A DNA stretch of 64,000 nucleotides from Pseudomonas sp. 8Z (GTDB taxonomy: Bacteria > Pseudomonadota > Gammaproteobacteria > Pseudomonadales > Pseudomonadaceae), in the NCBI RefSeq assembly GCF_902506535.1, contig NZ_LR733824.1, positions 596,317-660,316 of the forward strand, in the 5' to 3' direction. The notes below the pieces were generated by a model. It was given only the letters and a program-made list of their open reading frames with translations, was not told where the DNA came from and made no database searches. Of the stretch, positions 12,269 through 25,688 are shown piece by piece. The stretch's first letter is position 1; every line of letters begins with the position of its first letter. The translations under genes were made by a program, and so were the position numbers.

Positions 12269-12344
12269 CGATCTTTAACAAGGAAAAGTTGGTAGATTTT
12301 TAGCGGCTGATTTTTCCCTTTGGGGACAATCGGTTACGCTAAGT
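12269..12344 (+). promoter_or_regulatory. CRISPR array 1 leader
   Basis: AT-rich leader immediately before the first repeat. It aligns over its whole length with the leader of array 2 (24304-24378): both contain CGATCTTTAACAAGG, GTTGGTAGATTTTTAGC and GGTTACGCTAAG near the repeat. This fixes the array direction as left to right and shows that both arrays can be served by the same Cas1-Cas2. In array 2 the first bases of the conserved block are the end of cas2. Confidence 0.8.
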
Positions 12345-13227
12345 GTGTTCCCCGCGCCAGCGGGGATGAACCGCGCAGCCAGTGGTCAGGTTCTAACTGG
12401 TCGACGTGTTCCCCGCGCCAGCGGGGATGAACCGTCAATAAGCTGCTGAGCCTCGCCGGTAATGTTGTGTTCCCCGCGCCAGCGGGGATGAACCGTGCTC
12501 AGCCGCCTCAAGCGCGACTTCGACTTCCGTGTTCCCCGCGCCAGCGGGGATGAACCGGCTGACTTTCGGAGCCTCTGGCTCAGTGGACAGTGTTCCCCGC
12601 GCCAGCGGGGATGAACCGAAATGCAGTCGCTGTACACTGATGGGAAGCACGTGTTCCCCGCGCCAGCGGGGATGAACCGTAGGCCCGACATCTACCGGAT
12701 CCGCTGGCCTTGTGTTCCCCGCGCCAGCGGGGATGAACCGTCACCCATTCCGAGCGTGGCAGGCATTAGCAGGTGTTCCCCGCGCCAGCGGGGATGAACC
12801 GCAGATGATCGAAATACGCTTTACATATAGGGCGTGTTCCCCGCGCCAGCGGGGATGAACCGTGTGGAACGCCTGCAAAGGCCTCGATGTGCTGGTGTTC
12901 CCCGCGCCAGCGGGGATGAACCGCCATGGTTTTTGAGGCTTGGTGGCAGGATGTTGTGTTCCCCGCGCCAGCGGGGATGAACCGTACGGGGCAAAAACCT
13001 AGTTGCGCCACTAATGGTGTTCCCCGCGCCAGCGGGGATGAACCGGGCGTGCTGGGCCAGACCATGACCGCCGACGAGTGTTCCCCGCGCCAGCGGGGAT
13101 GAACCGTCCTGCGCGGCCAGCTCGATAGCGGCGCTGAAGTGTTCCCCGCTCAGCGGGGATGAACCGCCTTCGCGCAGATCGTGCTTCAGGTACTTGAAGT
13201 GTTCCCCGCGCCAGCGGGGATGGAGCG
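12345..13227 (+). CRISPR. Type I-E CRISPR array 1 (15 repeats, 14 spacers)
   Basis: 29-bp repeats starting GTGTTCCCCGCGCC and ending GGGGATGAACCG alternate with 32-bp spacers, one of which (12496-12528) is 33 bp. Repeat starts are 12345, 12406, 12467, 12529, 12590, 12651, 12712, 12773, 12834, 12895, 12956, 13017, 13078, 13139 and 13199. Repeat 14 is 28 bp, having lost a base in the loop, and repeat 15 has a changed end (GGAGCG), which is the usual decay at the leader-distal side. The repeat is the E. coli-like I-E type with a GC stem, cut by Cas6e. By eye no spacer is shared with array 2 or matches elsewhere in the window. Confidence 0.98.
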
Positions 13228-13388
13228 CAATGGCAAATTCAAGGAGTCGCTCGAAGTGAGGCCTTGTAGCGGCTGTCGGCGCGGCCTTTGTGGGGGGCTT
13301 GCTCCTAGCGACTGTTGAGCACGCTGCGGTGCTCGTTGAATTGTGGTCGAGGGATGCTTCTGCGCTGGTGAGTGTGATCGTGCAGTTG

Positions 13389-13721
13389 TCAGGCATGTGC
13401 CTCGCGATCCAGCACGTCCACCACCCATTGATTGATACTTTTGTGAGCCAATTCGGCTTTCACGGCGACCGACGCATGAAGCGCGGGCTCCAGGCGCAGG
13501 CTGAGTTTGCCGGAGTAGGGTTTTTGTGGCGAGCGCTCTAGTTTGGCGCAGGTTTCGAGGTAATCGTCGACAGCTTCTTCAAAGGCACCGCGAAGTTCTT
13601 TTACCGACTCACCATGGAAACCCACTACATCGCGAATCCCTGCGATATGGCCAATGAAGAGACCATCTTCATCGCTGTATTCGATGCGAGCGGCATAACC
13701 TTTGTAATTCATTGCGTTCAT
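13389..13721 (-). CDS. hicB: HicB-family antitoxin
   Basis: A 110-residue protein with the partial RNase H-like HicB fold at the N-terminus (YKGYAARIEYSDEDGLFIGH, then FHGESVKELRGAFEEAVDDY) and a C-terminal ribbon-helix-helix segment (GKLSLRLEPALHASVAVKAE). HicB neutralises HicA and represses its own promoter. Its start overlaps the hicA stop by 4 bases. An internal ATG three codons later is an alternative start. The pair is transcribed away from cas3, toward the end of array 1. It is a complete antitoxin by length and motif. Confidence 0.92.
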   Translation of the reverse strand: MNAMNYKGYAARIEYSDEDGLFIGHIAGIRDVVGFHGESVKELRGAFEEAVDDYLETCAKLERSPQKPYSGKLSLRLEPALHASVAVKAELAHKSINQWVVDVLDREAHA

Positions 13722-13972
13722 GGGGTGACTCCTGCTTGCTCAAGGAAGGCCCGAGCATCACGAACCTGGTAGGGCTTGGCTTCCTTGTCGGGGTGGGGGC
13801 GGTGAAAGGTGCCGATCACGCCGTTCAGCTCAAAGCGCTCTCTGGAGCCATTGCCCTCGATAGTCCTGGCGCCAGCCGCTATAAAAAGAGACTCAATGCG
13901 AGCCCATTCAAGCGAACTGGAGGCTGGCTTGGCGAAGATGGCTTGCAGAGTGTTTTTCGGTTTATTGTTCAT
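13718..13972 (-). CDS. hicA: HicA-family mRNA interferase toxin
   Basis: An 84-residue protein starting MNNKPKNTLQAIF at the ATG at 13972. The double-stranded-RNA-binding-like HicA fold is recognisable (LEWARIESLFIAAGARTIEG, then the histidine-bearing GVIGTFHRPHPDKE). HicA toxins cleave mRNA when free of HicB. The longer in-frame start at 14227 would swallow the intergenic region and has no family match. The gene order toxin then antitoxin with a 4-base overlap is standard for hicAB. The module lies between array 1 and cas3 on the opposite strand. Confidence 0.9.
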   Translation of the reverse strand: MNNKPKNTLQAIFAKPASSSLEWARIESLFIAAGARTIEGNGSRERFELNGVIGTFHRPHPDKEAKPYQVRDARAFLEQAGVTP

Positions 13973-14198
13973 GGTATCGAACTTTAATACCGCGGTGAGT
14001 GCGCTACAAGTATTTGCATGGTCCTGCTTGAGTCGCAGGTGGTGACTTCCTGCTATTCGCATTTGCAGGGATGAGTGCCGCAGCGCTGCACCGCCTCTGG
14101 CGGCTCTACACATTCCTGCTAACGGGGCAAGTGCTGCACTGATTTTCTTGCAGCAGCGATGCATTTTCGATGCCTGCGATTGTCTGTCGCTGGCGATG

Positions 14199-14210
14199 GT
14201 GGCACTTTGT
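14199..14210 (+). promoter_or_regulatory. GTGGCACTTTGT motif upstream of cas3
   Basis: The same 12 bases occur at 17666-17677 upstream of cas8e. Here the motif ends 34 bases before the cas3 ATG. The copy resembles the -24 half of a sigma-54 promoter (TGGCAC), but the -12 half reads TTTCA rather than TTGCA. It could instead be a shared regulator site. The rest of the 13973-14244 gap, between the divergent hicA and cas3 starts, shows nothing else clear. Confidence 0.4.
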
Positions 14211-14244
14211 TTCAAGTCGAGTTTCATGATGCAAGGAGTGCCAG

Positions 14245-16920
14245 ATGAAAGGATTCGCCGATCTCAGCGACCAGGCCCGCCGCCTCTGGGCCAAGAGTGG
14301 TGAAGGCTACGGCCATGGTGTGCTGGCGCATTTGCTGGACGTGGCTGCGGTGGCCGAGCGGATGCTGGCTCATGAGCCTCCGAGCACACTGGATTGGGCC
14401 GCTCAGGCGTTGGGCCTGGGGCGTGAGCATGTTGCGCGTTGGGTTGCCTGCCTGGTAGGCCTGCATGACTTCGGCAAGGCCATCCCCGGCTTTCAGGACA
14501 AGTGGTTCGAAGGGCGACAGGCCGGTGAGGCGCTTGGGCTGGCCTTTCCCGACCGTGCCCTGGGTGTTACCGACCATGCTTGCGCCAGTGCAGCGTTGCT
14601 CTGGGAGCACTTGCCTGGCCAGGGTATCGGCCATCTGTTGTGGATTCGCCATGTGTTGCAGGCCATCAGCGCCCACCATGGCTACAACTTCAACCAAAGC
14701 GAATTCAATCGGGCCAAACCGGCGTTCGAGCCACCGGCCTGGAGCGAGGCGCGTCGGCAGATATTCGCGGCTTACTGGGGCGTATTGGCGCCACAGGGCA
14801 CTCCGCAGACCGAGGCCTTGTCGCAGCCAGCGGTGCAATGGCTGGCAGGCTTGACCAGCGTGGCTGACTGGATTGGCTCCAACCCCGAATGGTTTCCCTT
14901 GGGCGAGCGCCACGCGCTGCTGGCCGAGCATCATGTTGATGCCTGCTTACGCGCGGATCAGGCATTGCAGCAGATCGGTTGGCGAGTCTTTCAGCCTTTG
15001 TTGAAAGACTCGTCCACAGCGGATCATCTGATCGCACAGATCGTCCAGCGCCCGAAGCTGACGGCGCGACCTTTGCAGCGCGAGGCTGATCGCTTGCTCG
15101 GTGGTGTACAAGGCCCGGCACTGCTGCTGGTCGAGGCGCCGATGGGTGAGGGCAAGACCGAGCTGGCCTTTCTCGCTCACCTGCGGCTGCAGGCGGCCAA
15201 CCAACATCGTGGCCTGTATGTCGCGCTGCCGACGCAGGCCACAGGCAATGCATTGTTCAACCGTGCTTTGACCTTTCTCCATGGCTTCTCGGGCGATACG
15301 GCGCTGGACGTGCAACTGGTACATGGTGGCGCCGGGCTTAACGAACAGGTGCTGGCGCTACGGGGCATTTATGGTGCCGAGGGCGAGAGCGTGTCCTCGT
15401 CGGCCTGGTTCTCTCAGCGCCGCCGCCCGCTGCTATCGCCTTATGGCGTTGGCACTGTGGATCAGGCGCTGTTCGCCACACTCAACGTCAAACACCATTT
15501 CGTGCGCTTGTGGGGTTTGAGCAACCGCGTGGTGGTGCTCGATGAAGTACATGCCTACGACACCTACACCAGCGGCCTGATCGAAGCCTTGCTGCGTTGG
15601 CTCAAGGCGATGGGCAGTTCGGTAGTGTTGATGAGCGCTACCTTGCCGGCGCCGCGTCGCGATGCCTTGCTACGTGCCTGGGGCGTTGCCCCGGAGAGCG
15701 CGCCCGATCTGAGCTATCCGCGTCTGTTGTTGGCCGATGATCGTGGCCTCAAGGGTGGCACCTGTGCTTCGCGGCCACTGCCGCCGATTCACCTGCAGGC
15801 CGTGGCGGAAGATGTCGACAGCCTGATCGCCAAGGCCTGTGTGCTGGTGCAGCAAGGTGGTTGCGGCGCGCTGATCGTCAATACCGTGGATCGCGCGCAA
15901 AGCCTTTACCTAAAACTCAAGGCTGAACTGGGCGATGAGGTTTCGCTGCTGCTCTTTCATGCGCGCTTCCCGGCCAATCAGCGCAGCGAGCAGGAAAAGG
16001 CCGTGCTGGCGCGTTTTGGTGAGGGTGGCGCGCGCCCGGCCAGGGCTTTGCTGATCGCCACCCAGGTGGCCGAGCAGAGCCTGGATATCGACTTCGACTT
16101 CATGCTTACTGACCTAGCGCCGGTGGATCTGATTCTGCAGCGCGCCGGTCGTCTGCATCGCCACCAGCGCGAGCGCCCCGAGGCACATCGGCAGGCGACC
16201 TTGTATGTGGCGGGGCTGGCGCCCGAAGCCTTGCCCGATCTCAAGAGCACGGCCTGGGAATACGTCTATGAGCCCTACATCCTTGGGCGCACCTGGGCGT
16301 TGCTGTCGCGTGAGCAGGAATTACACCTGCCACAGGACATCGACCGGCTGGTGCAGGCGGTGTATGACTGCGAGGATTTACCGGCGGATCTGGCCGAGGC
16401 GGATCGTGCCTTTATCGAGGATGAGGCCTACGGCAGTTACTTGGGCAAACGGCAGACCGAGCGCATGATGGCCCGCAACGTCGCCATCGACCCCGAGGCC
16501 GAACCGCAGAACGCCTACACCCAGAAAAATCGCGGTTATGAAGAGGGCGAGGAAGGCTTGGGGCTGCCCAATTACACCCGCCTCGGTGACGACTCGGTAA
16601 CGCTGATACCCGTGCATGAAGTGCCCGGTGGCTGGAGCCTGACACCAGGTGGCGAGGCCTTCGACCCCGATCAGCCGCTGCCCAACGCGCTGGCCAAACA
16701 GCTCCATGCCCGCCAGCTAAAAACCTCACGCACCGCTTTGGTCAAGCATACGCAGGCGTTGGAGTCGCGGCGGTCGTTCAATGAGCATCCGTTGCTGCGT
16801 CATCTCAAGCCGCTGGTACTGATCGATGGCTGCCTGCAGATCGGGCGTTTGACGGTGCGTCTGGAGGATGAATTGGGCTTGGTCTATCAGCGCGGCGCAG
16901 CTAGTGGCTTGCCCGAATGA
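14245..16920 (+). CDS. cas3: Type I-E CRISPR-associated nuclease-helicase Cas3
   Basis: The effector nuclease-helicase recruited by target-bound Cascade; it nicks and degrades the displaced strand. The 891-residue protein starts with an HD nuclease domain: H24 or H29, H74-D75 in GLHDFGK, DHACASAALL, and the double histidine in SAHHG. An SF2 helicase follows: Walker A EAPMGEGKTE at about 297-306, DEVH at 433-436, LMSATLPA, and motif VI QRAGRLHRHQ. Cas3 and HD are fused, as in E. coli. An SD-like AAGGAG precedes the ATG. It is separated from the Cascade genes by a toxin-antitoxin pair. All catalytic motifs are present. Confidence 0.97.
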   Translation: MKGFADLSDQARRLWAKSGEGYGHGVLAHLLDVAAVAERMLAHEPPSTLDWAAQALGLGREHVARWVACLVGLHDFGKAIPGFQDKWFEGRQAGEALGLAFPDRALGVTDHACASAALLWEHLPGQGIGHLLWIRHVLQAISAHHGYNFNQSEFNRAKPAFEPPAWSEARRQIFAAYWGVLAPQGTPQTEALSQPAVQWLAGLTSVADWIGSNPEWFPLGERHALLAEHHVDACLRADQALQQIGWRVFQPLLKDSSTADHLIAQIVQRPKLTARPLQREADRLLGGVQGPALLLVEAPMGEGKTELAFLAHLRLQAANQHRGLYVALPTQATGNALFNRALTFLHGFSGDTALDVQLVHGGAGLNEQVLALRGIYGAEGESVSSSAWFSQRRRPLLSPYGVGTVDQALFATLNVKHHFVRLWGLSNRVVVLDEVHAYDTYTSGLIEALLRWLKAMGSSVVLMSATLPAPRRDALLRAWGVAPESAPDLSYPRLLLADDRGLKGGTCASRPLPPIHLQAVAEDVDSLIAKACVLVQQGGCGALIVNTVDRAQSLYLKLKAELGDEVSLLLFHARFPANQRSEQEKAVLARFGEGGARPARALLIATQVAEQSLDIDFDFMLTDLAPVDLILQRAGRLHRHQRERPEAHRQATLYVAGLAPEALPDLKSTAWEYVYEPYILGRTWALLSREQELHLPQDIDRLVQAVYDCEDLPADLAEADRAFIEDEAYGSYLGKRQTERMMARNVAIDPEAEPQNAYTQKNRGYEEGEEGLGLPNYTRLGDDSVTLIPVHEVPGGWSLTPGGEAFDPDQPLPNALAKQLHARQLKTSRTALVKHTQALESRRSFNEHPLLRHLKPLVLIDGCLQIGRLTVRLEDELGLVYQRGAASGLPE

Positions 16921-16967: not shown

Positions 16968-17219
16968 ATGCAAACCATCCTTACCAGTCGCGAGTTCAAT
17001 CAGGACACCAGTGGCGCCAAGCGCGCTGCTAATCGGGGGCCGGTCTTTATCACGGATCGTGGCAAGCTGGCCCATGTGCTGCTGAGCATCGAGCAATACC
17101 AGCGTCTGACCGGCGGCCCCGGCAGCATCATCGATCTGCTGGCCATGCCGACAGTCGAGGACATTGAGTTCGAGGCGCCGCGTGCGCAAGGTTTGTCGCG
17201 CCCGGCGGACTTGAGCTGA
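16968..17219 (+). CDS. Phd/YefM-family antitoxin
   Basis: An 83-residue protein: an N-terminal Phd-like DNA-binding fold (MQTILTSREFNQDTSGAKRA, then GPVFITDRGKLAHVLLSIEQY) and an acidic, flexible C-terminal tail (VEDIEFEAPRAQG) of the kind that wraps around a PIN toxin. Its stop overlaps the toxin ATG by one base (TGATG). The family both neutralises its toxin and represses the operon; the inverted repeat just upstream is a likely target. It lies 47 bases after cas3. Confidence 0.9.
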   Translation: MQTILTSREFNQDTSGAKRAANRGPVFITDRGKLAHVLLSIEQYQRLTGGPGSIIDLLAMPTVEDIEFEAPRAQGLSRPADLS

Positions 17220-17644
17220 TGTTCGTCCTCGACACCAATGTCGTGTCCGAACTGCGCAAGGCCAAGAGTGGCAAGGCCGACCCGCGCCTGGCGGCCTGGG
17301 CTCAGCGTCTGGTGCCGGGGCAGTTGTTTATTTCCGCTATCACCGTGCTTGAGCTGGAAACCGGCGTTTTGCTGGTGGAAAGACGCGACCCGCAGCAGGG
17401 CAGCCTGCTGCGCTCCTGGCTCGATGGCCACGTATTACCTGGCTTCGCCGGTCGCATCCTGCCGGTCGACGCCGCCGTGGCGCAGCGCTGCGCGCAATTG
17501 CACGTTCCCGACCCTCGGGCCGAACGCGACGCGCTGATCGCGGCCACGGCATTGGTGCATGGCATGACGGTCGCCACACGCAACGTGGCGGACTTTCTGC
17601 CCACGGGCGTGGCACTGGTCAACCCCTGGGAGTTTGCCGGTTGA
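17219..17644 (+). CDS. VapC/FitB-type PIN-domain toxin
   Basis: A 141-residue PIN-domain ribonuclease with the acidic metal-binding set D5 (FVLDTNV), E45 (VLELETG), D104 (ERDALIAATA) and D125 (RNVADF). Such toxins cut tRNA or rRNA when the antitoxin is lost. It is complete and most like the FitB branch. It follows its antitoxin with a one-base overlap and precedes cas8e by 106 bases, so the pair divides the cas3 and Cascade transcription units. All catalytic acids are present, so it is probably active. Confidence 0.92.
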   Translation: MFVLDTNVVSELRKAKSGKADPRLAAWAQRLVPGQLFISAITVLELETGVLLVERRDPQQGSLLRSWLDGHVLPGFAGRILPVDAAVAQRCAQLHVPDPRAERDALIAATALVHGMTVATRNVADFLPTGVALVNPWEFAG

Positions 17645-17750: not shown

Positions 17751-19292
17751 ATGAGTGAGTCTTTCAATCTGCTCGACGAGCCATGGCTGGCGGTACGGAT
17801 GCACGATGGGCAGGTGCGTGAGCTGGGCTTGTTGGCGCTCTTCGAACAGGCCGGCGAGATCAGTGCCCTGGCGGAAACCTCGCCGCCGGGCCTGATCGCT
17901 CAATACCGGCTGTTGCTGGCTATTACCCACCGCGCCATCAGCCAGGCGCAAGGGCGCTGGACGGATGCCGAGCGTGTGCGCTGGTATCAGAACGGGCTGC
18001 CGCTGGCCGCCATTCGCGACTATCTGCAGCATTGGCGCGAGCGCTTTTGGTTGTTCCATCCGCAGTACCCCTTCATGCAGGTGGCGGCACTGGCTGACGC
18101 CGACGAAACCCGCGACAAGCTCAAACCCTGGACGCAAATCTCCCTGGCCAGCGCCAACGGCAATGCGCCGGTGGTGTTCGATCACTCCTGTGACCTGGCG
18201 CCGCGCAGCATCGCAGCCGCCGATGCGCTGCGTACCTTGCTGGGCTTTCTGCAATTCACGCCCGGCGGCCTGGTCAAGACGCTGCGCGACTCCGACAAGG
18301 CAGGCGCCTTGGCCAATACGGCAGCGGTAATGCCGGTGGGCGATTCACTGGGGCAAAGCTTGTGCCTGGCTCTGCACCCGCCGACTCAAACAGGGCATGA
18401 AGACCTGCCCGCCTGGGAGCGCAACGCGCCGAGCATTGCCCAGTTGCGTGGCGACCCTGAGGTGGCGACTGGCCCCAATGATCGCTACACCCGGCAAAGC
18501 CGAGCAGTTTTGCTATTGGCGGACGATGAACAGCGTGTGCAGTGGATTCGCTTTGCCGCTGGTTTGGCTCTGGGCGACGACGTGCAGGCCCCCGACCCAA
18601 TGGCCAGCTACCGGGCCGGCAGCAATAGCCTGGTGCGCCTGAGCTTCAGCGAAGGCCGTGCCTTGTGGCGCGACTTACCCGCGTTGTTGCCGGATGCCGA
18701 AGGCAAGACCTCGCAGCCTGCGGCGGTGCTGGAGTGGGCGGCCAATCTGCAACTTTTCCTGGGCAGCGGTGTGCAACCGTTGCTGATCGCAGGCTTGGCC
18801 AGCGATCAGGCCAAATTGCTGCGCTGGCGCTCCGAACGCATCGCACTGCCGTCCAAATTGCTGGCTTCCGCCGATCACGCCAACGAGCTGCGCCGCTATG
18901 TGCGCGATGCCGAAGAGTTGTTTACCGCCTTGCGCAAGCTGGCCACCGGCATGCTCGCCGAAACCCTGCCCGACCCCGGCAGCAAGGACACCTGGGCTCG
19001 TGCCCGTAGCCTGATCGATGCCGGGCCAGCGGGCGCCTTGTACTTCGCCAGTGCCGAGCGCCATCTGGGCCATGCCATGGCGCTGTTGGGCAACGACGAA
19101 CTGGACGAGGCCGAAGCACTCTGGCGCCAGAGCCTGCATGACGCCGCCCGTGATGCCTGGCAGGCCGTGTTGGCCGGCTTGGGCCGAGGCGCCAAAGCTC
19201 TACGTGCCGAGGCACGTCATCATTCACGTCTGCTGGGGCTGCTTGCCCCGTTGCGGGCGACTCCCACACCTGACAAGGAGGTTCGCGCATGA
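17751..19292 (+). CDS. cas8e: Type I-E Cascade large subunit Cas8e (Cse1/CasA)
   Basis: A 513-residue Cse1 protein. The N-terminus (SESFNLLDEPWLAVRMHDGQ) is the family signature; Cse1 recognises the PAM, helps open the target and recruits Cas3. It heads the Cascade operon, overlapping cse2 by 4 bases. The length is like that of E. coli CasA (502). The start ATG follows a purine-rich GGGGGAT. The helical C-terminal bundle is visible from about residue 370 (ELFTALRKLATGMLAETLPD). No truncation is seen. Confidence 0.96.
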   Translation: MSESFNLLDEPWLAVRMHDGQVRELGLLALFEQAGEISALAETSPPGLIAQYRLLLAITHRAISQAQGRWTDAERVRWYQNGLPLAAIRDYLQHWRERFWLFHPQYPFMQVAALADADETRDKLKPWTQISLASANGNAPVVFDHSCDLAPRSIAAADALRTLLGFLQFTPGGLVKTLRDSDKAGALANTAAVMPVGDSLGQSLCLALHPPTQTGHEDLPAWERNAPSIAQLRGDPEVATGPNDRYTRQSRAVLLLADDEQRVQWIRFAAGLALGDDVQAPDPMASYRAGSNSLVRLSFSEGRALWRDLPALLPDAEGKTSQPAAVLEWAANLQLFLGSGVQPLLIAGLASDQAKLLRWRSERIALPSKLLASADHANELRRYVRDAEELFTALRKLATGMLAETLPDPGSKDTWARARSLIDAGPAGALYFASAERHLGHAMALLGNDELDEAEALWRQSLHDAARDAWQAVLAGLGRGAKALRAEARHHSRLLGLLAPLRATPTPDKEVRA

Positions 19293-19831
19293 GTGAGTTC
19301 GCGCAGAGCTTTATCGCCCATTTGCAGCGCCTGCAAGAGCGTGACCGGGGCGCCATCGCCACCTTGCGCCGCAGCCTGAGCTTCGAGCCGGGTAGCTATC
19401 CGCCGGCTTATCCCTATGTGGAGCGCTTCGTCGCGGTCGAGCGGCATGCTCAGGACGCTTCGCGCCTGGCGCTGTATCTGACGGCGGGCCTATACGCCGC
19501 TCATCCTCATCATGGTGCGCGAAGCCTGGCTGCCAGCCTTGGCGAACTGATGCGCAAGCGTGAAAGCGCCAGCATCGAGCAACGCTTCGTCGCCTTGCTC
19601 GGTGCCGATGCGGAAAACCTGGCGGTGTATCTGCGCCAGATCATCAGCCTGTTGGCCGCCGATGATCGCCCGCTGGACTACGCCGTGCTGCTGCGCGACC
19701 TGAGCGTCTGGCTCAACCCCTATATCGATGCCGAGCGCCGCGACAACGTACGCCAGCGCTGGGCGCGGGACTTCTATCGTGCGCTGGCGACGCCTGCTGC
19801 CGAATCCACCGAACAAGCTGTCAACGACTGA
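19289..19831 (+). CDS. cse2: Type I-E Cascade small subunit Cse2 (CasB)
   Basis: A 180-residue helical protein with the Cse2 signature around residues 15-35 (QERDRGAIATLRRSLSFEPG). Two copies in Cascade stabilise the R-loop and bind the displaced strand through basic residues. It overlaps cas8e by 4 bases and is 10 bases before cas7, so it is part of one operon. The length is normal. Confidence 0.95.
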   Translation: MSEFAQSFIAHLQRLQERDRGAIATLRRSLSFEPGSYPPAYPYVERFVAVERHAQDASRLALYLTAGLYAAHPHHGARSLAASLGELMRKRESASIEQRFVALLGADAENLAVYLRQIISLLAADDRPLDYAVLLRDLSVWLNPYIDAERRDNVRQRWARDFYRALATPAAESTEQAVND

Positions 19832-19841
19832 GAGGGACATC

Positions 19842-20984
19842 ATGAGTCTGTTTGTCGAGTTTCACCTGATCCAGAACTTCGCCCCATCCAACCTCAACCG
19901 CGATGACACCGGTGCGCCCAAGGATGCTCTGTTCGGTGGTCATCGCCGTGCGCGGGTCAGCAGCCAGTGCTTCAAGCGCGCCATTCGCCTGGCGGCGCAG
20001 GAGCATGAGCTGGTCGCCCCGGAGTATCGCGGCGTGCGTACCAAGAAGCTCAAGGCGCTGTTGCTGGAGCGTCTGGTTGGGCGTGATCCGCTGGAAGCCG
20101 AAGGCAAGATCGAAGTTGCCCTGGCCGCTGCTGGTCTCAAGCTCAAAGACGACGGCAAGACCGAGTACCTGCTGTTTCTCGGCGAAGCCGAAATCGCGGG
20201 TTTCGCTGCGCTGATCGAACAGCACTGGGACGAACTGGCCGGAGCCCCGGCGGGTGGCGAGAAGAAAGGCAAGAAGGAAGCCAAGGCCAGCGCCCCGGCA
20301 GATGTGGTGAAAAAGGCCAAGGCCCTGCTCGACGGCGGCAAGGCCGTGGACGTGGCGCTGTTCGGGCGCATGCTCGCCGACATGCCGGAGGTCAACCAGG
20401 ACGCTGCCTGCCAGGTCGCCCATGCCATCAGTACTCATCGCGTGGAGCGTGAGTTCGACTACTTCACCGCCGTCGACGACAAAGGCGGGCCGGACGAAAC
20501 CGGCGCCGGCATGATCGGCCAGGTGGAGTTCAACTCCGCCACCTTGTACCGCTATGCCGTGGTCGATGCTGGCAAGCTGCTCGGCAACCTGCAGCAGGAT
20601 CGCGAACTGACCCTGTCCGCCCTAGAGGCTTTCACCCAAGCCGTGGTGCGCGCCATCCCAACGGGCAAGCAGAACACCTTCGCCGCACATAACCTGCCGA
20701 GTTTCGTCGGCGTTTGTCTGCGCCACGCCGGCCCGCTGAACCTGGCCAATGCCTTCGAGAAACCCATCGCTGCCCGTCAGGATGCATCGTTGACTGGGCT
20801 GTCGGTCAGCGAGTTGGCCAAGCATGAGGGCAAGCTGGCGGCGGTCTATGCCGATGCCCGCGATCAGTGGGCGTATCTCGATCTGAGCGACGCCTGGCCT
20901 GCGCAGAAGGGCACTCAGGTGCAGAACCTGAGTGAGCTGGCGGCCTGGGTACGCACGCAGGTTGCCGCGCAACTGGAGGGTTGA
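19842..20984 (+). CDS. cas7: Type I-E Cascade backbone Cas7 (Cse4/CasC)
   Basis: A 380-residue RAMP protein; six copies form the crRNA-binding backbone of Cascade. It starts at the ATG at 19842 (MSLFVEFHLIQNFAPSNLNR), after a good GAGGGA; a longer in-frame start at 19728 lies inside cse2 and is discounted. The signature DALFGGHRRARVSSQCFKRA is present, and so are the conserved PTGKQNTFAAHN region near residue 275 and a lysine-rich insertion (about 140-160) in the thumb or finger region. Confidence 0.96.
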   Translation: MSLFVEFHLIQNFAPSNLNRDDTGAPKDALFGGHRRARVSSQCFKRAIRLAAQEHELVAPEYRGVRTKKLKALLLERLVGRDPLEAEGKIEVALAAAGLKLKDDGKTEYLLFLGEAEIAGFAALIEQHWDELAGAPAGGEKKGKKEAKASAPADVVKKAKALLDGGKAVDVALFGRMLADMPEVNQDAACQVAHAISTHRVEREFDYFTAVDDKGGPDETGAGMIGQVEFNSATLYRYAVVDAGKLLGNLQQDRELTLSALEAFTQAVVRAIPTGKQNTFAAHNLPSFVGVCLRHAGPLNLANAFEKPIAARQDASLTGLSVSELAKHEGKLAAVYADARDQWAYLDLSDAWPAQKGTQVQNLSELAAWVRTQVAAQLEG

Positions 20985-20986
20985 GC

Positions 20987-21649
20987 ATGGCCACCCTGTT
21001 GCTGCGTTTGCAGGGGCCGATGCAATCCTGGGGCACCACCAGCCGCTTCGATGAGCGCGATACCCAGTTGGAGCCTTCCAAATCGGGTGTGCTTGGGCTG
21101 GTCTGTGCGGCCCTGGGGCGGGATCGGCATGAGCCGGTCGAGGATTTGGCGGCCCTGCGCATGGGCGTGCGTGTCGACCATGAAGGCGCGCCCATGCGCG
21201 ATTACCAGACAGCGACCGGCGTATTGATCGCCACGGGTAAGTCGGACTTGCGACGCACCGTGGTCAGCCCGCGCTATTACCTGTCGGATGCGGCCTTTCT
21301 GGTCGGTCTGGAAGGGGCGGATGAAGACCTGCTGACGCGCATTCACGCCGCCTTGCGCGCCCCGCACTGGCCGTTGGCGCTGGGACGCAAGAGCTTCGCG
21401 CCGGGCATGCCTGTCTGGCTGCCCGATGGCTTGTCGCCCCTGCCGCTGGAGACAGCGCTGGCGCAATACCCAAGGCTAAGCAGTGCGCGCCGAGACGACT
21501 CACAGCCAACCCTGCGTTGCCTGCTGGAAGATGCTCAGGAAGGCGCCGTCCGCCTGGATCAGCCGGTCGCGCCTTTTGCCGAACGTCGTTTCGGCCCACG
21601 TTACGTGAAATCGGGAGTGCTACATGTACCTGACCAGACTGACGCTTGA
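20987..21649 (+). CDS. cas5e: Type I-E Cascade subunit Cas5e (CasD)
   Basis: A 220-residue Cas5 protein starting MATLLLRLQGPMQSWG at the ATG at 20987, two bases after the cas7 stop. The LLRLQGPMQSWGTTSRF N-terminus is the family hallmark; Cas5e caps the 5' handle of the crRNA and contacts Cas8e. A TTG two codons upstream is possible but unlikely. It overlaps cas6e by 26 bases. The length agrees with E. coli CasD (224). Confidence 0.96.
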   Translation: MATLLLRLQGPMQSWGTTSRFDERDTQLEPSKSGVLGLVCAALGRDRHEPVEDLAALRMGVRVDHEGAPMRDYQTATGVLIATGKSDLRRTVVSPRYYLSDAAFLVGLEGADEDLLTRIHAALRAPHWPLALGRKSFAPGMPVWLPDGLSPLPLETALAQYPRLSSARRDDSQPTLRCLLEDAQEGAVRLDQPVAPFAERRFGPRYVKSGVLHVPDQTDA

Positions 21650-22238
21650 CCCGCGCAGCGCCCAGGCGCGGCGTGACCTGGCCGATGCCTACGAGATGCA
21701 CCGTACGCTGGCCCGTGCCTTCGTGCCCGATGAGCAGAGTACTCCGGCGCGTTTTCTCTGGCGTCTGGAAGCGGGCAGTAATGCCTGGGCAAGCCCTGTG
21801 GTGCTGGTGCAATCGGCGCAGGCTGGCGACTGGTCGGCCTTGCAGGTGCTGCCCAATTACCTGCAGCGCGAGATCGAAAGCAAACCGCTCGATCTCCAAT
21901 CCTGGGTCGAGGGCGGGGTGCGCTACCGCTTTCGTCTGTTGGCCAATCCAACCGTGACGCGCCAGGGCAAACGCTATGGCCTGGTGGGCGAGCAGGAGCA
22001 ACTTGCCTGGTTGAGTCGTCAGGGCGAGCGCCATGGTTTCGCGGTCGAAGCGGCCCTGGTCACGGCCAGCGATATGCTGGCAAGCCGCAAGGGTGACAGC
22101 CGCATCAGCTTGCAACGGGTGTGCTTCGAGGGGCGCTTGCAGGTGCGCGAACTGGCGGCCTTCAGTCGTGCGCTTGAACAAGGCATCGGCCCGGGCAAGG
22201 CATTCGGCTGTGGGCTGCTCAGCGTGGGGCGCGGCTGA
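21624..22238 (+). CDS. cas6e: Type I-E crRNA-processing endoribonuclease Cas6e (CasE)
   Basis: A 204-residue Cas6e protein that cuts the pre-crRNA within each repeat and stays bound to the 3' hairpin. It shows MYLTRLTLDPRS at the start, the catalytic-helix region with H26 (YEMHRTLARAF), and the C-terminal glycine-rich loop GIGPGKAFGCGLLSV. The length and motifs match E. coli CasE (199). It is coupled to cas5e by the overlap. The next gene is not cas1, as would be expected, but a KilA-N protein 25 bases downstream. Confidence 0.96.
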   Translation: MYLTRLTLDPRSAQARRDLADAYEMHRTLARAFVPDEQSTPARFLWRLEAGSNAWASPVVLVQSAQAGDWSALQVLPNYLQREIESKPLDLQSWVEGGVRYRFRLLANPTVTRQGKRYGLVGEQEQLAWLSRQGERHGFAVEAALVTASDMLASRKGDSRISLQRVCFEGRLQVRELAAFSRALEQGIGPGKAFGCGLLSVGRG

Positions 22239-22263
22239 TTCTGGAGCAGAAATGGAGGGCTGC

Positions 22264-23085
22264 ATGAAAGCCAAGCTGCAGGTGCTTGAGCAGGACATCA
22301 ATACGCATATCAAGGATGGGGTTGAGTACATCTCCATAACGGATATCGCGCGATACAAAAACGCGGATCGAATTGATGACTTGATCCGCAACTGGTTGCG
22401 TAATCGCAATACCCTCGAGTTTCTGGGGATCTGGGAGCAACTCAATAACCCCGATTTTAAACCCGTCGAATTCGACGGGTTTAGAAAGCAGGCAGGGCTT
22501 AATAGCTTCACCCTGACCCCCAAGCAGTGGATCGAGCAGACCGGTGCTGTTGGCTTGGTTTCCAAAGCTGGGCGTTATGGTGGCACCTTTGCCCAAAAGG
22601 ATATTGCCTTCGAGTTTGCCAGTTGGATTTCGGTGGAGTTCAAGCTCTACCTGATCAAGGAGTTTCAGCGGCTCAAGGAGCAAGAGTTTCAGCAGTTGGG
22701 TTGGGATATTCGCCGCAACCTAGCCAAGGTCAACTACCTGATCCATACCGATGCCATTCGCGAGAATCTGATTCCCGAAACCTTGAGCGCACAGCAGATC
22801 AGCTTCGTTTATGCCAGTGAGGCCGACCTGTTGAACGTGGCATTGTTCGGCGTCACCGCTCGACAATGGCGTGATGCCAACCCAGGACTGAAAGGCAATC
22901 TGCGTGATCATGCCGACGTCCATCAATTGGTCTGTCTGGCCAACCTGGAATCGATGAACGCGCACTTCATCAGTGAAGGGCTGCCCCAGTCCGAGCGCCT
23001 GCTGAAATTGAACGAGCTGGCTATTCGGCAAATGCGCGTATTGGTCGAAGCTACTCGGCAGCCATTGCTCGATGAAGGCGTCTGA
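22264..23085 (+). CDS. KilA-N-domain DNA-binding protein inside the cas operon
   Basis: A 273-residue protein. The N-terminal region (about 15-130) has the KilA-N fold typical of phage antirepressors and some standalone bacterial proteins: ISITDIARYKNADRIDDLIR, NWLRNRNTLEFLGIWEQLNN, and the signature GRYGGTFAQKDIAFEFASWI with EFKLYLIKEFQRLKEQE. The C-terminal half (about 150-273) is helical and not recognised. The ATG at 22264 has a good GGAGGG 4-5 bases away; the in-frame ATG at 22252 lacks one. It starts 25 bases after cas6e and stops 2 bases before cas1, whose SD lies in its last codons, so it is embedded in the operon. It is not a known Cas subunit. Confidence 0.88.
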   Translation: MKAKLQVLEQDINTHIKDGVEYISITDIARYKNADRIDDLIRNWLRNRNTLEFLGIWEQLNNPDFKPVEFDGFRKQAGLNSFTLTPKQWIEQTGAVGLVSKAGRYGGTFAQKDIAFEFASWISVEFKLYLIKEFQRLKEQEFQQLGWDIRRNLAKVNYLIHTDAIRENLIPETLSAQQISFVYASEADLLNVALFGVTARQWRDANPGLKGNLRDHADVHQLVCLANLESMNAHFISEGLPQSERLLKLNELAIRQMRVLVEATRQPLLDEGV

Positions 23086-23087
23086 AC

Positions 23088-24378
<1,291 letters not shown>

Positions 24379-25688
24379 GTGTTCCCCGCGCCAGCGGGGA
24401 TGAACCGTCCGCCAGTCTAAAACCCACATGGCCCGACTGGTGTTCCCCGCGCCAGCGGGGATGAACCGTTCATGCTCACAATCATGTATGAGGAAATTTT
24501 GTGTTCCCCGCGCCAGCGGGGATGAACCGAGATTGCTCAGAAGTGGGCGCGCAATAAGGCGGTGTTCCCCGCGCCAGCGGGGATGAACCGCCCATATGTA
24601 GCTACCGCGCTCTGGAACCTTCGTGTTCCCCGCGCCAGCGGGGATGAACCGTCTACGGGTGATAATTGCGGTGCTGATAGCTAGTGTTCCCCGCGCCAGC
24701 GGGGATGAACCGCAACGCCCCTCCCCTTGGAGCTGCTGCTGGTGGTGTTCCCCGCGCCAGCGGGGATGAACCGGCAAGATCATTGTCGAGTGCTACGGCA
24801 AATCGGTGTTCCCCGCGCCAGCGGGGATGAACCGCTCGAAATGTGGCGCGGCGCGGGCATGGACGGGTGTTCCCCGCGCCAGCGGGGATGAACCGTCAGG
24901 GAACTTGGCCCAGGCGTCGAGCTGTGCGTGTTCCCCGCGCCAGCGGGGATGAACCGTTGGGATAGTGCTCCAGGACGTAGCAGACAGCGTGTTCCCCGCG
25001 CCAGCGGGGATGAACCGCCAGAGAATTGACTCCGGCTCTTGCTGGTACGGTGTTCCCCGCGCCAGCGGGGATGAACCGCCATCCGTACCGGCCTTAGCCG
25101 CGAACAGACAGTGTTCCCCGCGCCAGCGGGGATGAACCGAAAACGGCGATTTGATCCGCGCAGGCGGTGAGGTGTTCCCCGCGCCAGCGGGGATGAACCG
25201 CCGGTGAGGATGTTGGATGCGATGTCTGCGGTGTGTTCCCCGCGCCAGCGGGGATGAACCGTTCGATAAGGACAATCGCCAGCACCAGCAGCAGTGTTCC
25301 CCGCGCCAGCGGGGATGAACCGCAAAGGCCGTGGTTTTCTCAAACTTAGGCAATGTGTTCCCCGCGCCAGCGGGGATGAACCGGCACGCAAGCGCAGCGT
25401 ACTGCGGCTGCCGAGGTGTTCCCCGCGCCAGCGGGGATGAACCGTTCGCTTCTATAAAGTCAGCAGTCTGCCGGGCGTGTTCCCCGCGCCAGCGGGGATG
25501 AACCGTCCGCAGTCGGTCATCATGTCAAAGTTAAGCTGTGTTCCCCGCGCCAGCGGGGATGAACCGAAGCTGAAAGCACTTGGCTTTGAAATGGCCAAGT
25601 GTTCCCCGCGCCAGCGGGGATGAACCGGGGGCGAAAGTAGCACGCCGCGTACTCTCCACGTGTTCCCCGCGCCAGCGGCGATGAACCA
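24379..25688 (+). CRISPR. Type I-E CRISPR array 2 (22 repeats, 21 spacers)
   Basis: Repeats identical to those of array 1 recur with an exact 61-bp period from 24379 to 25660, giving 21 spacers of 32 bp. Only the last repeat (25660-25688) is altered (GGCGATGAACCA), marking the leader-distal end. The uniform period and intact repeats suggest an active, younger array. I saw no spacer repeated within the array or shared with array 1. Confidence 0.98.

Follow-up and report, generated by a model that had tools for sequence, protein, structure and literature searches.

We analyzed a stretch of 64,000 nucleotides from Pseudomonas sp. 8Z (contig NZ_LR733824.1, positions 596,317 to 660,316; hereafter the window), which contains a complete type I-E CRISPR-Cas system whose cse1, cas7, cas5, cas6, cas1 and cas2 genes score above the cut-offs of the I-E NCBIfam models. 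Between cas6e and cas1 of this system lies a gene for a KilA-N-domain protein of 273 amino acids. This arrangement is beyond chance because it recurs in front of cas1-cas2 in 34 of the 80 best relatives of the gene and in all 14 full-length copies found in 248 Pseudomonadaceae genomes. The KilA-N gene forms a dedicated clade, is under purifying selection and stays beside cas1-cas2 while the effector genes around this constant cassette change, and the predicted model of its product has DdrC as its top fold match. We tentatively propose that the protein is a dedicated accessory of I-E adaptation, which may bind DNA as a dimer and would keep broken DNA held or bridged for Cas1-Cas2.

Recurrence of the arrangement

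A scan of contigs from species-level genomes yielded 243 relatives of the KilA-N protein, of which the best 80 were retained, and the Cas proteins of the window were mapped onto all 80. In 34 of them the KilA-N gene was directly upstream of type I-E cas1-cas2, and these were 34 of the top 36 relatives, the exceptions being L027 and L033 (L and G numbers are our handles for loci and genomes, respectively). The gene followed cas6e in 31 of these loci and cse1 in three (L010, L020 and L024), where the operon is rearranged to cas3-cas6e-cse2-cas7-cas5-cse1 with KilA-N directly before cas1 (genes tested in L010). Among the genera named in the titles of the 34 records are Pseudomonas, Stutzerimonas, Halopseudomonas, Reinekea, Gilvimarinus, Hahella, Methylophaga, Marinomonas, Alteromonas, Marisediminitalea, Rheinheimera, Shewanella, Amphritea and Aliidiomarina. 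The initial annotation of this DNA held that a recurrent position in distant strains would support a role, and the cas1-adjacent position is indeed found in distant genera rather than in a single genome.

Other placements were also seen. L044 is an I-E locus with KilA-N between cas3 and cse1, and L027 is a truncated stray gene whose neighbors were read by eye as flagellar. The I-C-like locus L041 has the order cas5-(771-amino-acid open reading frame)-cas7-cas3-KilA-N-cas4-BroN-cas1, followed by an open reading frame of 97 amino acids where cas2 would be; the Cas1 of this locus scores above the I-C model cut-off with 504 bits, Cas5 and Cas7 do not reach theirs, and the tail of the KilA-N gene is divergent. 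As cas4 and cas1 of L041 are separated by a Bro-N domain gene (L041:11486-12355), two phage-type domains, Bro-N and KilA-N, occur in one adaptation module.

Samples that were not chosen by KilA-N gave a fuller account of how often the gene is present. Among the 248 Pseudomonadaceae genomes, 30 had a Cas1 match, and 28 I-E loci remained after two weak matches (32-35% identity, no cas6 beside them) were dropped. A KilA-N match was present in 17 of the 248 genomes; 14 of the matches were full-length, and all 14 were directly before I-E cas1 (co-occurrence p = 1.5e-15, with relatedness ignored). One of the three shorter matches is the remnant at L085, and the other two are in G015 and G044, genomes without an I-E cas1 match. 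The 28 junctions comprised 14 with full KilA-N, two with remnants (L085 and L086) and 12 empty ones with cas6e joined to cas1. According to the initial annotation, close relatives with cas6e and cas1 directly joined and with the gene elsewhere without linkage would argue against a role. The first half of this pattern was seen in the 12 empty junctions, but the second half was not, as no KilA-N relative was found elsewhere in those 12 genomes at expectation values (E) up to 1e-20.

In a genus sample of 179 genomes, I-E cas1 was found in two genomes and KilA-N in the same two. The junction of G1075 (locus L248) holds a 48-residue KilA-N remnant, preceded by what appears to be a second cas1 start; read by eye, this remnant between two cas1 5' ends is perhaps a trace of the entry of the cassette into an empty cas6e-cas1 junction. 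The class sample of 369 genomes had 25 with a Cas1 match, and dropping two weak ones (40-46% identity) left 23 I-E loci including the window's own, which was the only one with KilA-N at I-E cas1. Some KilA-N match occurred in 21 genomes of this sample, among them G508, where KilA-N and I-E cas1 are both present and about 220 kilobases (kb) apart. G485 of the same sample holds the I-C-like locus, apparently on the same contig as L041. The phylum sample, which was judged by the junction gap rather than by a search for KilA-N, added 13 further I-E loci (L144 of G611, present in both the class and the phylum samples, was counted once). In 12 of these loci cas6e and cas1 were joined, and the remaining gap of 353 bases is too short for the KilA-N gene. 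Full-length copies were present at 14 of the 28 Pseudomonadaceae loci, at one of the 23 class loci and at none of the 13 further phylum loci, and KilA-N is thus not a core gene of I-E. Seen from this KilA-N clade, the association is strong; seen from I-E, it is limited.

Lineage and conservation of the KilA-N gene

A tree of KilA-N was built for 102 relatives, with L085 and L086 left out as too short. One branch, with an SH-like approximate likelihood ratio (SH-aLRT) support of 99, holds 40 rows: 38 I-E junctions, the I-C-like L041 and the stray L027. The relatives associated with restriction-modification (R-M) genes and L044 fall outside this CRISPR clade. As would be expected of an accessory of adaptation, the clade stays beside cas1-cas2 despite effector exchange in 39 of its 40 members.

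The median best-segment identity to the window across the 34 I-E loci was 81.6% for KilA-N (minimum 73.6%), 77.8% for cas1 and 69.6% for cas2. The corresponding medians for the effector genes were 37.7% for cas7, 35.0% for cas5, 30.9% for cas6 and 30.8% for cas3, while cse1 and cse2 were detectable in just 11 loci each, with identities of 65 and 59%, respectively. KilA-N, cas1 and cas2 are similar across these loci while the effector genes diverge, and therefore the KilA-N-cas1-cas2 cassette is combined with very different I-E effector modules. The interpretation given in the initial annotation, which included an auxiliary factor of adaptation, is partly supported, namely by the recurrence in distant genera and by the retention of the gene beside cas1-cas2 in loci with a different effector side.

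The ratio of nonsynonymous to synonymous substitution rates (dN/dS) relative to the window was 0.04-0.10 for KilA-N in the 11 of 12 loci that gave a finite value, and 0.02-0.10 for cas1. The effector genes reached 0.3-0.5 in distant loci, where dS was saturated; in the closest loci (L001-L004), cas5, cas6 and cas7 were roughly as constrained as KilA-N. KilA-N is under purifying selection in the range of cas1. When the presence of KilA-N was placed as a label on a cas1 tree, for which the loci bearing the gene had in part been picked for having it, 13 changes were counted, at least four of which were forced by well-supported branches. Therefore, KilA-N has been repeatedly gained and lost among I-E loci, nearly always inside a CRISPR context.

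The initial annotation had also considered a trapped phage gene. A pattern-based scan of viral contigs gave five relatives with a best identity of 73%, and annotated phage records gave 19 relatives with a best full-length match of 59.6%, compared to 95% in bacterial I-E loci. We rejected a prophage or trapped phage gene, given that cas genes lie on both sides, that the CRISPR copies form a clade of their own and that the phage and viral relatives are more distant.

Operon organization and other occupants of the junction

The position of the gene given in the initial annotation was confirmed by the coordinates: the cas6e stop at 22238 is followed by a gap of 25 bases, and cas1 starts at 23088 after a gap of 2 bases. 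A GAAGG motif was also located inside the 3' end of KilA-N, where a ribosome-binding site of cas1 had been proposed. The features of the locus are as follows.

14245..16920, + strand, cas3 (Pfam Cas3_HD and Cas3 C-terminal models)
17751..19292, + strand, cse1 (cas8e; NCBIfam TIGR02547)
19289..19831, + strand, cse2 (Pfam PF09485)
19728..20984, + strand, cas7e, with homology from near 19850 (NCBIfam TIGR01869)
20981..21649, + strand, cas5e (NCBIfam TIGR01868)
21624..22238, + strand, cas6e (NCBIfam TIGR01907)
22254..22258, + strand, GGAGG, probable ribosome-binding site of the KilA-N gene, 5' of its ATG (from the sequence)
22264..23085, + strand, KilA-N gene, 273 amino acids, PADLOC PDC-S22 family (Pfam PF04383, 69.4 bits against a curated cut-off of 23.8; PDC-S22 profile, residues 3-265 of 273, 436 bits)
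22318..22680, + strand, KilA-N domain, residues 19-139
22681..23058, + strand, C-terminal all-helical domain, residues ~140-265
23074..23078, + strand, GAAGG, probable cas1 ribosome-binding site within the KilA-N 3' end, 5' of the cas1 ATG (from the sequence)
23088..24014, + strand, cas1, type I-E (NCBIfam TIGR03638, 381.6 bits)
24014..24313, + strand, cas2, type I-E (NCBIfam TIGR01873)
24319..24378, + strand, leader, from cas2 to the downstream CRISPR array
24379..25627, + strand, downstream I-E CRISPR array with a 61-base period and at least 21 repeats by a strict pattern count (a looser repeat search suggests one more)

The KilA-N domain was the sole Pfam match of the protein, in which Pfam found no nuclease domain. 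This gene was the sole KilA-N match in the source genome, and a search of the same genome with the Cas1 family matched this cas1 only, in two stretches. A consensus scan found no promoter-like site in 21500-24400, and joint transcription of the KilA-N gene with the cas operon is likely. Upstream of cas3 there is a second CRISPR array (12344-13234); the two arrays are on the same strand and flank the cas operon, and their leader-repeat starts (12285-12373 and 24319-24407) are 93% identical over 89 bases. A HicA-HicB toxin-antitoxin pair (13389-14227, - strand) lies between the upstream array and cas3. Between cas3 and cse1 there is a pair consisting of a Phd/YefM-type antitoxin (34.9 bits) and a PIN-domain protein (16968-17644, + strand), which is 94-96% identical in L001-L003 and has no match in L004.

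In the 22 other loci of the class sample, all gammaproteobacterial, the place before cas1 was empty in 8, occupied by toxin-antitoxin-type genes in 12 (L130-L133, L135 and L137-L143) and by unassigned open reading frames in one (L129), while the last one (L134/L213) has a 3.6-kb stretch with CRISPR-like repeats. The Pfam matches of the junction genes were MazE or RHH with PIN, HigBA-like Gp49 with HTH_37, UPF0175 with DUF3368, DUF433 with DUF5615, Phd with ParE, a nucleotidyltransferase with or without a weak HepT match, PIN with an unassigned small open reading frame, and a HipA fragment; some of these genes are partial, and we take them to be of the toxin-antitoxin class from the Pfam matches together with what is known of those families. 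In 17 wider loci, most of the large gaps between cas matches fell either before cas1 or between cas3 and cse1, and a few were at cse1-cse2/cas7. The place where effector genes meet adaptation genes is thus a recurrent slot, and the boundary before I-E cas1 is possibly a general hot spot for toxin-antitoxin-type genes. At the KilA-N junction of the window, a type II toxin-antitoxin pair was rejected, as one open reading frame of 273 amino acids fills the junction instead of two adjacent small genes.

This recurrent slot keeps two other explanations alive. In one of them, which we regard as improbable, the cas6e-cas1 boundary is simply permissive, and KilA-N would be a mobile or addictive gene, benefiting from the operon but of no service to it. 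The 13 gains and losses on the cas1 tree, at least four of them forced, the KilA-N remnants at the slot and the other guests found there are consistent with such a passenger. However, 39 of the 40 clade members remain next to the adaptation genes though the rest of the operon is exchanged, and the purifying selection on the gene is in the range of that on cas1. The other explanation, a guard function, is weighed below with the relatives found in R-M operons.

Predicted fold, relatives outside CRISPR and possible functions

The protein is predicted to consist of a KilA-N domain and a helical domain. The top match among solved folds, both for the whole model and for the C-terminal domain alone, was DdrC, a Deinococcus DNA-damage protein, and the N-terminal domain of the model matched the DNA-binding domain of Mbp1; the domain order and the C-terminal fold thus appear DdrC-like in the model. 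DdrC of Deinococcus radiodurans differs in that its identity to the KilA-N protein is at most 18% in fold alignments, and no link at the sequence level was found: the family profiles A1 and A2, compared with PDB chains up to E = 10, gave no match. DdrC is, moreover, a radiation-induced chromosomal protein outside immune operons. A viral fold library gave seven matches with E < 0.001 (best 2e-8), all with TM-scores of at most 0.55, and the named ones were phage KilA-N proteins.

The protein also matches over its full length the profile of PDC-S22, a single-gene PADLOC defence candidate whose entry has no description; the PDC systems are presented as unvalidated candidates in PMC12813430. In the open-licence literature, we found nothing on KilA-N or PDC-S22 at cas1, nor a mechanism or a CRISPR-specific clade for PDC-S22. 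The family is known as PDC-S22, and we regard the arrangement before cas1-cas2 as a variant of type I-E with a probable dedicated accessory gene.

Besides L041 and L044, the other 46 of the 80 best relatives included 24 inside or beside R-M genes and 20 without such a direct link, with neighbors called by tblastn with few query proteins, which can miss some. The 24 comprised 13 at type III mod/res pairs (L033, L039, L042, L043, L048, L050, L051, L057, L061, L064, L068, L070 and L074), 10 in the vicinity of type I hsd genes and a single one, L047, beside a type IIG-like pair. The hosts of the mod-KilA-N-res loci are bacteria of several phyla and archaea. The genes of these loci are tightly packed: the KilA-N start is at most 14 bases from mod, or a few bases inside it, in 11 of 13, and res starts 5-38 bases past the end of the KilA-N match in 11 of 13. 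Among the remaining 20 relatives, the nearest link is in L038 and L055, with R-M genes at a distance of 4-7 kb, and the neighbors tested in others include sulfatase, glycosyltransferase, Fic, HerA, AlkZ-like and DUF4268 genes. L054, L065 and L078 adjoin genes for DUF1016/YhcG-type nucleases, of which the one at L054 matches another PADLOC defence candidate, PDC-S02.

Occurrence inside type III and type I R-M operons besides I-E operons, the status of the family as a defence candidate and the presence of toxin-antitoxin-type genes at the same junction in other I-E loci are all consistent with a guard or abortive-infection function. The protein would then be a self-contained anti-phage effector that is co-expressed in defence operons and acts when the main system is blocked, like PrrC, the guard-type precedent within a type I R-M operon, or CreTA/CrePA. 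BstA, reported as a prophage-encoded abortive-infection protein of about 300 amino acids with cognate self-immunity, likewise has two domains with a KilA-N-like N-terminal one (PMC8585504), a likeness of description only, but it is a prophage gene and not a member of a cas operon. CreTA/CrePA also ties a toxin gene to a CRISPR locus, and CreP typically contains KilA-N according to a review (PMC12737573). CrePA, however, requires a promoter that is repressed via CreA, which resembles a CRISPR RNA (crRNA), whereas the gene of the window has 25 bases upstream and reads as a member of the cas operon. A CrePA-type toxin was rejected, given that this gap has no space for creA or a promoter and that no promoter-like site was found around it. 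Also against a guard in general are the lack of a partner antitoxin for this lone gene, which leaves no space for a crRNA-like one either, the strong conservation and slow evolution in place of the diversity that might be expected of a phage-facing effector, and the association of the gene with cas1 rather than with the effector genes, the usual target of anti-CRISPR proteins. We consider this function unlikely.

The initial annotation further suggested a regulator, and the KilA-N protein could bind DNA of the cas operon or leader and tune the expression of the operon or of cas1-cas2. KilA-N is a DNA-binding type of domain, the N-terminal part of the model matches Mbp1, and in both mod-KilA-N-res and cas6e-KilA-N-cas1 the gene immediately precedes the latter half of the operon. 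Direct support was not found: the junction has no promoter-like site, and a crude exact-arm scan, which used the most upstream in-frame start and is weak evidence, found no inverted repeat shared upstream of cas3 among 33 operons. The leaders after cas2, mostly 60-70 bases long, look the same by eye whether or not a Pseudomonadaceae locus has KilA-N, which argues against a regulator and led us to reject a leader-specific factor as well. The operons and hosts are, in addition, so different that one operator could hardly serve them all, and a regulator appears quite unlikely.

For the proposed accessory of adaptation, Cas4 offers a parallel. Cas4 is an accessory of Cas1-Cas2 in several subtypes and, like KilA-N, a third gene travelling with cas1-cas2, but it is unrelated to the KilA-N protein, and in L041 the KilA-N gene adjoins cas4 itself. 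In the mechanism that we envisage, the KilA-N domain would bind DNA, the helical domain would dimerize the protein as in DdrC, and the dimer would prefer DNA ends or nicks. The bond of the CRISPR clade with cas1-cas2 suggests that ends or fragments may be held there for spacer capture by Cas1-Cas2. The wider family may do a related job in R-M operons, where a helicase-nuclease likewise breaks DNA; as each recurrent setting (I-E, type III R-M and type I R-M) has a DNA-breaking helicase-nuclease, a DdrC-like break-binding protein would fit all of them.

Array lengths are in the right direction for an adaptation role and are suggestive only. Leader-proximal arrays had a median of 47 repeats with the gene and 15 without it (11 + 11 loci; p = 0.066, not significant). 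These values were picked by hand, and G074, G186 and G239 (with the gene) and G111 (without it) were dropped because contig ends cut their arrays. Across all 26 loci, the total repeats were 35 versus 20.5 (p = 0.105) and the longest array 31 versus 14 (p = 0.135). The remnant loci G143 (3 and 5 repeats) and G043 (79 repeats) were in neither arm.

A broader proposal, which we put forward as doubtful, is that PDC-S22 proteins are a DdrC-like break-binding immune class in operons with DNA-cutting helicase-nucleases (Cas3, HsdR and type III Res), one clade of which would have become a dedicated third I-E adaptation protein that holds ends for Cas1-Cas2. I-E is a reference system for spacer acquisition and is described as needing only Cas1-Cas2 plus host factors. 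A dedicated clade that holds its position at cas1-cas2 amid changing effector genes in more than 12 named gammaproteobacterial genera makes an overlooked acquisition factor a testable prediction. The findings also supply a setting for a defence candidate that is still unvalidated and is found repeatedly within restriction operons of types III and I, and the slot that takes up either toxin-antitoxin-type genes or KilA-N provides a comparative handle on what enters CRISPR operons and why.
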